A stretch of DNA of 50,465 nt. Source: a bacterium HR15 (GTDB lineage: Bacteria; Armatimonadota; Fimbriimonadia; Fimbriimonadales; GBS-DC). Position numbers and translations under genes: made by a program. The notes under the pieces are model-generated. The model worked only from the letters and a program-made list of their open reading frames with translations. It had not been told where the DNA came from and did no database searches. Position 1 is the first letter of the stretch, and each line of letters begins with the position of its first letter. The stretch lies in NCBI GenBank assembly GCA_002898555.1, contig BEHR01000030.1:1-50465 (forward strand), written 5' to 3'. Of this stretch, positions 10,827 through 13,175 are shown one piece after another.

Positions 10827-11936
10827 TTAGCAGCCTTCACCGAAGGCGAACAGTACAGCGAGCAGGTCGGCATCGTCCACGATGCCGTTGCCGTCCACAT
10901 CCTCAGGCAGCTCGCCCATTTGACCGAAGGCGAACAGCACGGCAAGCAGGTCGGCATCATCCACGCAGCCACTGCCATCGATATCGGCGCGTGAATGACC
11001 CGCGGAGCCGTCGCCGCCCATGTCAATGCTATCCAGCATCCAGCCTTGAGGCACCTGAAACTGCAGGTTAAACTCGGCTGGCATTGGGATCCCCTCAGCG
11101 GGCATCGGATCACCAACGCTTGGTAAAGGCACTCTGGCAAAGATGCCCGATCGCTCCGCGCGGGTTACGATGCCGTCTTGCAAGCTCAGGTGCAGCCGCC
11201 CGCCAGGCGATTGCAGCGAATCGCCACCTACCAGGATCAGCAAGTCGCACTCGCCACCGCGACCATTCCAGACGATGCGGGCGGAATCGCCCCAGCCATC
11301 GCCATCCAAGTCCTGTGTCTCCCAGTTGAAGCCGCTGGAGCGCAGGTCAAAAAGGGTGTCCTGGCGTTGTTGCCCAGCGGCGTTGGACAGGTGCAGAATC
11401 ACAGGGTCCGTATTTTGCACGCCGCATCTGCCACCCACCACATCCTGGAAGGCGGGCTGCCACACCACCTGCCCAGCAGCATTCAGTGTGCCACACAGCA
11501 CAGTAATGCGTGAGCGTGCAGCAGCAGATGCGCCCGACCGTCGGCAGCGCACGCAGGAGCGCCCGAAGGCTTCGTGAAAACCCTGAATGCAGTGGGTGCC
11601 GGGAATCCAATCCACCTGAAAGCGTGCGCAGGCGGTGGCAAAAGCGCACTCCTGAGCAGCCACGGCGGTGGCGCACTGAGTATCGGTGCTCGGAACAGGA
11701 TAGAAGTTGCAGCCACTGTTGGTGCTTACTTGGTTGGACGCTGGCGCCCATGCCAGTGCATGGGTGTGCCAGCACCACTGAACTCGTGGCTGACAATCAC
11801 GCGGCAGACAAACGCGGAAGTTATGCCGCACATTGAAGGAACAGCAGCGTACATCCTGCGCGGACGCAGGCACATTCCACAGCGTGAGCAACGCGCTCAC
11901 GACAAACCCGATACACCAAGAGTTTCTTCGGCTCAT
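10827..11936 (-). CDS. Secreted Cys-rich protein with C-terminal dockerin-like repeats
   Basis: This 369-residue protein has a signal peptide (SALLTLWNVPASAQ, up to about residue 27). A Cys-rich N-terminal third follows with roughly sixteen cysteines (RCCSF, LPRDCQPRVQWCW, CAFATACARF), then a region with DLDGDGWGDSARIVW. The tail has two dockerin-type loops, DIDGSGCVDDADLLAVLF and DVDGNGIVDDADLLAVLF, and the protein ends FGEGC. Tail and final Gly-Cys match the neighbouring 540-residue protein, although the N-terminal parts are unrelated. GGAGGT lies 7 bp before the ATG. The shared tail suggests a common export or attachment route. The function of the N-terminal part is unknown. Confidence 0.7.
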   Translation of the reverse strand: MSRRNSWCIGFVVSALLTLWNVPASAQDVRCCSFNVRHNFRVCLPRDCQPRVQWCWHTHALAWAPASNQVSTNSGCNFYPVPSTDTQCATAVAAQECAFATACARFQVDWIPGTHCIQGFHEAFGRSCVRCRRSGASAAARSRITVLCGTLNAAGQVVWQPAFQDVVGGRCGVQNTDPVILHLSNAAGQQRQDTLFDLRSSGFNWETQDLDGDGWGDSARIVWNGRGGECDLLILVGGDSLQSPGGRLHLSLQDGIVTRAERSGIFARVPLPSVGDPMPAEGIPMPAEFNLQFQVPQGWMLDSIDMGGDGSAGHSRADIDGSGCVDDADLLAVLFAFGQMGELPEDVDGNGIVDDADLLAVLFAFGEGC

Positions 11937-12101
11937 GGTTAAACCTCCGTTCTATGAGTGAGGAGCCTGTGTGGGTGCTTCTGCGTAGTGCGGAGAGTGT
12001 CAGCGAGGCATTCTCTCATATGCCCGCTTCACCCTGCACAGGTTCCACAGTATTTAATGCCGCGGAACCCCCAAATGTACCCTCGAGAGGCATTTCCGAG
12101 T

Positions 12102-12123
12102 CCCAAATCGACTCGTATTTGGG
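12102..12123. repeat. Short inverted repeat CCCAAAT/ATTTGGG
   Basis: Seven-bp perfect arms are separated by 8 bp (cgactcgt) in the gene-free stretch 11937-12436, just before the MITE-like element. It could be an operator or a weak hairpin; no gene start is close enough to decide. Confidence 0.35.
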
Positions 12124-12156
12124 TGTGCTGCGCTGTTTTAGCCTCTTATGCTCTTA

Positions 12157-12408
12157 GAGACTGTTTAAAAACTGGAGTTCAAGGAGATGGGCAGGCATTC
12201 ACGCTGGAGCATTTTGGAGGGCGAGGCTCCCGCCGAGCCGAATCTGGAGGGCGAGGCTCCCGCCGAGCCGTTCCAACCGACGCCGCACTAAGACAGGACC
12301 GTCTTAGTCAAGCATGTCGGCTCGCGGGGACGCTCGCCCACCAGTGTGAGTTTCGAGCAGATGCACCAGTCTGTCCCTACCATTCTTAAACAGTTCTTAA
12401 ACAGTCTC
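12157..12408. mobile_element. 252-bp MITE-like element with 18-bp terminal inverted repeats
   Basis: The left end GAGACTGTTTAAAAACTG (12157-12174) and right end CAGTTCTTAAACAGTCTC (12391-12408) are inverted repeats with one mismatch. The trinucleotide TTA flanks both ends (12154-12156 and 12409-12411), as expected for a 3-bp target duplication. Inside are two 26-bp GC-rich direct repeats and a small hairpin, ACTAAGAC/GTCTTAGT (12287-12308). There is no transposase. Ends beginning GAGACTGTTT with a TNA duplication recall IS5-family elements, so mobilisation in trans by such a transposase is inferred. The element sits just past the stop of the sigma factor gene. Confidence 0.75.
12215..12270. 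repeat. Two tandem GC-rich 26-bp repeats inside the MITE
   Basis: Two identical 26-bp units (12215-12240 and 12245-12270) have a 30-bp period. Each begins TGGAGGGCGAGG and contains the small hairpin GGCTC-CCGCC-GAGCC. Two units without varied spacers rule out a CRISPR array. Confidence 0.8.
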
Positions 12409-12436
12409 TTAACTTGCCCTGTCAATTCGACAGATT

Positions 12437-13087
12437 TTACAGGTAGGTGCGGAGCCGTTCGCGAGCATGCTGGCGTGCGCGGATTACGGCACGGGGTGTT
12501 ATCCCCAGCAGTTGAGCGATTTCACGGTCGCGTAGGGGTGCTTGTTCGACCAATCGTCGGACCTGGGGGCAAGTCAGATGCTGCGCAAGGTCATTTCCGC
12601 CTGCGTCCAGCACCGCCTCTGCCAGATCGGTGTCCAGGTGGAGTAGGAACGCTAATGCGTGATGGCGAGGCATCGCCATTAGTCCCTGGGCGACCGCCTG
12701 AAAGCATGCTGCATTCTCTGGAGTGCAGGCAGTGCCCATAAGCACCAGCGGCTGGCAATGGGGTGGCAACGCTTCCAGGGAGACCTCCGCTTGTTGCCGC
12801 GTGCGAAAACGGCAGTAGATACGGTGCGCCACCCGCTTGATGTACGCCATCAGGCACGGTTCCCAATCTTTGGCACCCTCAGGCACTCTGAACCGCAGCA
12901 CCGCGATGAGCACCTCGCTCAGAATGTCCTCCAAATCCTGCTGGTTTAGGGGGCAGGAGCTGGTGCAGTTCCAGCGCATCAACCAGCCCCAGGCGTGGGT
13001 ACGAGCGAACTGGAGCAGTTGCTCGGTCAATCGCTCTTTCCAGATTTCGTCGAACGCCTCTGTATCGTGTCTCGTTGTTAAGGTCAT
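12437..13087 (-). CDS. ECF-like sigma-70 family RNA polymerase sigma factor
   Basis: This 216-residue protein has a region-2-like segment (QQDLEDILSEVLIAVLRF) at about residues 50-67. Its C-terminal region-4 helix-turn-helix reads DREIAQLLGITPRAVIRAR at about 185-203. Such sigma factors direct polymerase to a small regulon. The ATG at 13087 is chosen since GGAGGT is 9 bp upstream; the GTG at 13096 directly abuts that site and is unlikely. The middle section between regions 2 and 4 is longer than in typical ECF factors and contains several Cys and His residues (CTPENAACFQAV). No anti-sigma gene is adjacent. It lies 88 bp after proS on the same strand. Confidence 0.75.
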   Translation of the reverse strand: MTLTTRHDTEAFDEIWKERLTEQLLQFARTHAWGWLMRWNCTSSCPLNQQDLEDILSEVLIAVLRFRVPEGAKDWEPCLMAYIKRVAHRIYCRFRTRQQAEVSLEALPPHCQPLVLMGTACTPENAACFQAVAQGLMAMPRHHALAFLLHLDTDLAEAVLDAGGNDLAQHLTCPQVRRLVEQAPLRDREIAQLLGITPRAVIRARQHARERLRTYL

Positions 13088-13175
13088 CGTCGTCACACCT
13101 CCGCGTTTGGTTCTGGCGGAAGTGTACGACGAGCCACTGAAAATGGACTGAAAACGCGCTGAAAGGCGTATGGTT

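Follow-up and report, generated by a model that had tools for sequence, protein, structure and literature searches.

MITEs with ends of the IS5 type and internal tandem repeats are already known from Porphyromonas gingivalis, and it is the repeats of the interior that are the interesting cargo of the element described here. As far as the excerpted report describes them (PMC4596501), the BrickBuilt and MITEPgRS/MITE464 elements of that species share with our element IS5-family ends (GAGACTGTTGCA in MITEPgRS), an intergenic position, a copy number of about 10-20 and internal tandem direct repeats, whose number varies in BrickBuilt. In the same excerpt their authors raised the idea that repeat insertion may have inactivated the parent transposon (PMC4596501). 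Members of the IS1031 group prefer TNA targets and give a 3-bp repeat, and some of them carry two overlapping open reading frames joined by a frameshift, according to the portion of the source cited here (PMC12016507). Our literature searches for such elements, or for the A repeat described below, in the phylum of bacterium HR15 (Armatimonadota) returned nothing relevant, and going by these searches the MITE family seems to be undescribed.

We analysed a stretch of 50,465 nucleotides of bacterium HR15 (contig BEHR01000030.1, positions 1 to 50,465 of the forward strand), which we call the window. The element, its parts and its neighbouring genes are as follows.

10827..11936, minus strand: gene of a weakly dockerin-like protein (NF041540, E 0.009, under cut-off); the element is situated about 220 bp ahead of the gene start
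12154..12156, no strand: left target duplication TTA, read from the sequence; 13 of 15 full copies have the same TNA triplet on both sides
12157..12408, plus strand: MITE copy GAGACTGTTTAAAAACTG...TTCTTAAACAGTCTC, 252 bp, with 24 loci in the own genome
12157..12171, plus strand: left terminal inverted repeat GAGACTGTTTAAAAA, at 37 places in the own genome with at most 2 mismatches
12215..12240, plus strand: first A repeat unit, from a repeat finder; 154 own-genome matches with at most 3 mismatches
12245..12270, plus strand: second A repeat unit; 1, 2 or 3 units depending on the MITE copy
12287..12308, plus strand: small hairpin ACTAAGAC...GTCTTAGT, DNA fold z -3.8
12318..12341, minus strand: B repeat unit, an inverted divergent relative of A, from a pattern search; free tandem arrays of B in genome G002
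12383..12404, plus strand: 11-bp tandem duplication, TTCTTAAACAG twice, private to the window copy
12394..12408, minus strand: right terminal inverted repeat GAGACTGTTTAAGAA; the same 15 bases end the IS and MITEs of same-family genomes
12409..12411, no strand: right target duplication TTA, read from the sequence
12437..13096, minus strand: sigma-70/ECF-like gene (TIGR02937, E 1.1e-6, under the curated cut-off)

The original prediction had placed a TTA-flanked element right after the stop of the sigma factor gene. TTA stands at 12154-12156 and again at 12409-12411. The position relative to the gene needs a correction: the sigma-like gene, read on the minus strand, ends at 12437, with the right duplication 25 bp past its stop. 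The interior also reads as predicted: a repeat finder returned two identical 26-nt direct repeats (the A units) at a spacing of 30 bp, a hairpin is present, and the element, which is short and bounded by terminal inverted repeats, leaves no room for a transposase. The terminal repeats were said to match at 17 of 18 positions. This count is correct (19 nt at 95% in the repeat finder if one flanking base is added), and none of 200,000 random 18-mer pairs from the flanking DNA matched at 14 or more positions. It is, however, inflated in the window copy, which owes the value to its private 11-bp duplication of TTCTTAAACAG beside the right end; the other aligned copies are without it, and the end match in the other 14 full copies is 10-15 of 18.

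The element was used as a query against the 3,036,312 bases (72 contigs) of its own genome, and the 55 matches came down to 24 loci after merging, with internal-repeat-only matches set aside; 25 loci were fetched for inspection (L001-L025), two of which overlap. The search for further copies that the original prediction had proposed thus revealed a multi-copy family. Both ends are present in 15 copies. At 13 of these the 3-bp flanks are identical (TTA, TGA, TCA or TAA), a number that random re-pairing of the flanks reached in 0 of 100,000 trials. The flanks read TNA at all 15 left sides and at 14 of 15 right sides, compared with a TNA base rate of 4.4%. The two exceptions among the full copies are L008 (TTA/TCA) and L009, whose right end is decayed. 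GAGACTGTTTAAAAA with up to 2 mismatches was found at the 37 own-genome places listed above, against 2 for the backwards control. Copies with two A units are 238-244 bp long apart from the window copy, and the number of these units in full copies is two in 10 of 15, one in 3 and three in 2. When 14 copies were aligned, with L009 excluded for its decayed right end, they diverged by 1.2-8.1% from the consensus, and the burst that produced them was therefore probably not very recent.

Insertion-site context was scored with mechanical ORFs of at least 90 aa on rejoined flanks. Thirteen of the 15 insertions avoid ORFs or touch only their extreme ends, and those of L002 and L014 fall within upstream ORF extensions, ahead of the likely start codon; on our reading of these mechanical ORFs, therefore, none of the full copies clearly interrupts a gene. 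The TNA triplet can be read on one strand as a stop codon (TAA or TGA), and in L007 and L019 this duplicated triplet falls on the stop of the adjacent ORF. Copies were found in co-directional, convergent and divergent gaps. The full element was not found outside its own genome, either in 60 relatives or in 290 phylum genomes, a search in which no more than two initial candidates were scored for each genome and which weak full-length relatives may escape. Conservation in all relatives, which would have spoken against the original prediction, was thus not seen. Ten of 17 family relatives have homologues of the sigma gene, at 11 loci in all, where the ends are absent within about 1.5 kb and the adjacent genes differ; the order of the genes that flank the sigma gene varies among relatives.

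Profile searches of the assembled own genome with PF01609 and PF13586 found no intact transposase of the IS5/IS1031 type. PF13586 had no match in this genome, and the two matches of PF01609 were a truncated relic (L060), in which a related left end is present, and an IS-like stretch with other ends. Because IS copies can drop out of a 72-contig draft, this absence is weak counter-evidence. Across the 61 genomes searched, own included, PF01609 matched in 17, and the transposase scan of the contigs gave loci on contigs of Fimbriimonadales MAGs. The IS that the original prediction had recommended looking for was found in two genomes of the same family, G011 and G015, whose IS copies carry the same 15-bp ends as the MITE; in the own genome these ends are shared with an IS only at the relic. 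The comparison took in seven IS copies: five measure 816-867 bp, another measures 766 bp, and the last is a deleted form of 505 bp. TNA stands at every one of their 14 flanks, and an exact 3-bp duplication was seen at 2 of the 7, the same target and duplication length as at the MITE copies. The transposase of these IS is laid out in two overlapping frames. Its halves in G015 match DUF4096 and DDE_Tnp_1 and also the NCBIfam IS5 model NF033580, for which each half alone is under the cut-off, in agreement with a DDE transposase of the IS5 type. Inside the transposase region of the G011 copies, a palindromic repeat was found in 4 of 6; L111 is without it and in L120 the region is deleted. A palindrome like it lies nearby in L060, the relic of the own genome. 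Together with the copies and their target duplications, the like-ended IS5-family elements of same-family genomes bear out the prediction of a 252-bp MITE with IS5-type ends.

We found the exact 15-bp end GAGRCTGTTTAARAA in 6 of 18 family genomes, own included, and compared ten further elements bounded by such ends in relatives. Nine of them, from G013 and G015, are 125-567 bp long, have hairpin-rich interiors (DNA fold z -10.0 and -7.3 for two G013 elements) and clearly match the window element at the ends only. The remaining element, 313 bp long and from G009, looks like an IS with a deletion. Exact 3-bp duplications were present at 3 of the 10; TNA flanks 9 of the 10 on the left and all 10 on the right. 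Comparison of the window MITE with the MITEs of the sister genus showed no clear similarity beyond the ends, and in our reading of the IS comparison no IS-derived sequence adjoined the MITE ends. These two observations, and the small number of exact duplications among the end-bounded elements and IS copies of relatives, count against the explanation that we favour below.

The internal repeats have a distribution of their own. With up to 3 mismatches, the A unit had its 154 own-genome matches compared with 0 for the backwards control; among the 100 of these 154 that were listed, 41 were inside the 24 MITE loci and 59 outside. Of 45 own-genome matches to the B pattern, 22 were in MITE loci and were B or close to it, and the 23 outside read as a third unit type, whose inner triplets are GCC/GGC or near to it. 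Unit matches occurred in 39 of 291 phylum genomes, own included, and outside the own genome they cover just the A part or just the B part of the element. With parts of the element matched in 39 genomes and the full element only here, the units are more widely spread than the MITE. Units at the fetched loci of the own and other genomes share the form GGCGA-NNN-NNNN-NNN-GAGCC. Of 166 distinct contexts, 148 have complementary inner triplets, in four types; this count is biased in that most loci were fetched by A/B similarity. This complementarity suggests a putative covarying stem in the repeat units; folding of a single A unit was no better than that of shuffles (z 0.10).

The units also appear in other settings. 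In 14 of 40 fetched A-unit stretches there is a match to the left end (GTGTTCGAAAATTCACGCGGCTCGCTG) of another MITE family. The copies of this second MITE-like family, seen in the own genome at L142, L144-L146, L153, L156, L158-L163, L167 and L181, have the left end GAGGGTGTTCGAAAATTC and 1-6 A units; several also have the right end TTTTCGAACACCCTC, which in L142, L161 and L162 is followed by a TTGACA-TATAAT promoter-like sequence. At L157, L164, L169-L173, L176 and L180, all in the own genome, A units stand in open frames that read EGEAPAEP or close to it. Judged from sequence, these units look as if they had been inserted in frame into genes, which makes them candidates for coding use. True B units were seen in the own genome only inside MITE copies and are free in G002, a genome of the same family without the full MITE, where tandem B arrays, mostly at 38-bp spacing, lie at L064-L066, L078 and L079. 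The own genome has a single Y1_Tnp (RAYT-like) gene, L080 (G000:C10:34510-34848), whose neighbours we take to be HIT-like and Der-like genes. No A or B unit with up to 4 mismatches lies within about 1.5 kb of it, and RAYT-driven spread of the repeats was rejected.

Having observed copies with common ends and target duplications, a related IS and free repeats, we are highly confident that the element is a MITE moved in trans by an IS5-family transposase of the IS1031 type, and that it most likely derives from such an IS, with the transposase part lost or replaced by repeats and a burst following later. In the mobilisation that we infer, the transposase would recognise the 15-bp ends, cut at TNA and duplicate this target. 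The interior, which has no transposase, is made up largely of dispersed GC-rich repeats, with 1-3 A units, the small hairpin and the inverted B unit. Most likely, an IS of this type would have been invaded by repeats that replaced its transposase part, or would have lost that part, and the later burst would have left about two dozen copies between genes. The locus could instead be no transposon at all and represent an expanding REP-like cluster of intergenic repeats that has IS-like ends by chance, as the 59 listed A matches outside the 24 loci might suggest. Such a cluster would hardly be expected to have sharp common ends and, in 13 of its 15 full copies, TNA duplications, and the IS5-family elements of other genomes share the same 15-bp ends; we regard this explanation as scarcely credible. 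A possible, if doubtful, alternative takes the internal repeats to be incidental: they would have got into one MITE and multiplied there in tandem, unrelated to the birth of the MITE. The varying number of A units among the full copies is consistent with it. However, at least one A unit is present in all 15 of these copies, the same-ended MITEs of two sister-genus genomes hold other hairpins, and the IS copies of G011 include ones with a palindrome in the transposase region.

We also considered that the element is retained for a role at the RNA level, its long hairpin past the sigma stop stabilising, processing or ending the transcript; the original prediction had proposed that the element could end or extend this transcript. 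As RNA, both strands of the element fold much more stably than shuffled sequences (z -7.7 and -7.3). Nearly the whole of the element folds back on itself because the right half holds the inverted B relative of A, and the inverted repeats alone already explain the strong folding. Besides the window copy, several others are no more than 40 bp away from the stop codon of a mechanical ORF; at the same time copies sit in all three kinds of intergenic gap alike. A simple consensus scan of 11800-12700 found no terminator-like or promoter-like site, and a promoter or terminator inside the element was rejected. Covariation among the MITE copies was no greater than in shuffled columns, with a change on both sides at 1 of 71 pairs, and a selected RNA structure was rejected. 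An RNA family identity was rejected too, just a tRNA in the window having reached its Rfam gathering score. An effect on the sigma transcript is thus possible but unsupported, and we consider retention for an RNA-level role improbable. We read it as a mobile element; no host function emerged from these analyses, and a regulatory role is not required to account for it.

For the MITE moved by an IS1031-type transposase, the hairpin-filled MITEs of relatives and the palindrome-bearing IS together suggest a recurrent link between repeats and IS. An extension that we put forward tentatively, and think rather unlikely, is that IS1031-type ends are a general vehicle in this bacterial family. Dispersed stem-loop repeats would repeatedly invade IS, knock out the transposase and ride on the ends, and the MITEs of each genome would have the same ends and their own hairpins (here GGCGA-NNN-TCCY-NNN-GAGCC units). 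If this were true, a series of intermediates from intact IS through hairpin-invaded IS to hairpin-only MITE would show the birth of a bacterial MITE, and a connection would be made between two sorts of genomic repeat that are for the most part handled separately.

Among described systems, ISLrh of the IS1031 subgroup resembles the likely parents in G011 and G015: as given in the excerpted source (PMC12016507), it is about 857 bp long, has two overlapping frames and takes a TNA target with a 3-bp repeat, all of which these IS share. The window element differs from it in having no transposase, and the end sequence of ISLrh is different (PMC12016507). Rickettsia palindromic elements are, in the part of the account considered here (PMC10969869), dispersed repeats that also occur as in-frame peptides, to which the A-unit open frames reading LEGEAPAEP in several stretches may be compared. 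Those elements measure about 150 bp (PMC10969869), whereas A units are about 27-30 bp long and often in tandem. ATR with REP2 of Neisseria meningitidis, likened here by description only, is an IS5-type-ended MITE that often has another direct repeat, as cited in the excerpt of PMC4596501. The closest parallel is BrickBuilt/MITEPgRS of P. gingivalis, beside which we set the window element by anatomy only. According to the same excerpt, the P. gingivalis repeats are 23 or 41 nt long and matched that species only, and the flanking duplications vary in length (PMC4596501); here the unit recurs every 30 bp and has matches across the phylum, and it is TNA that is duplicated.
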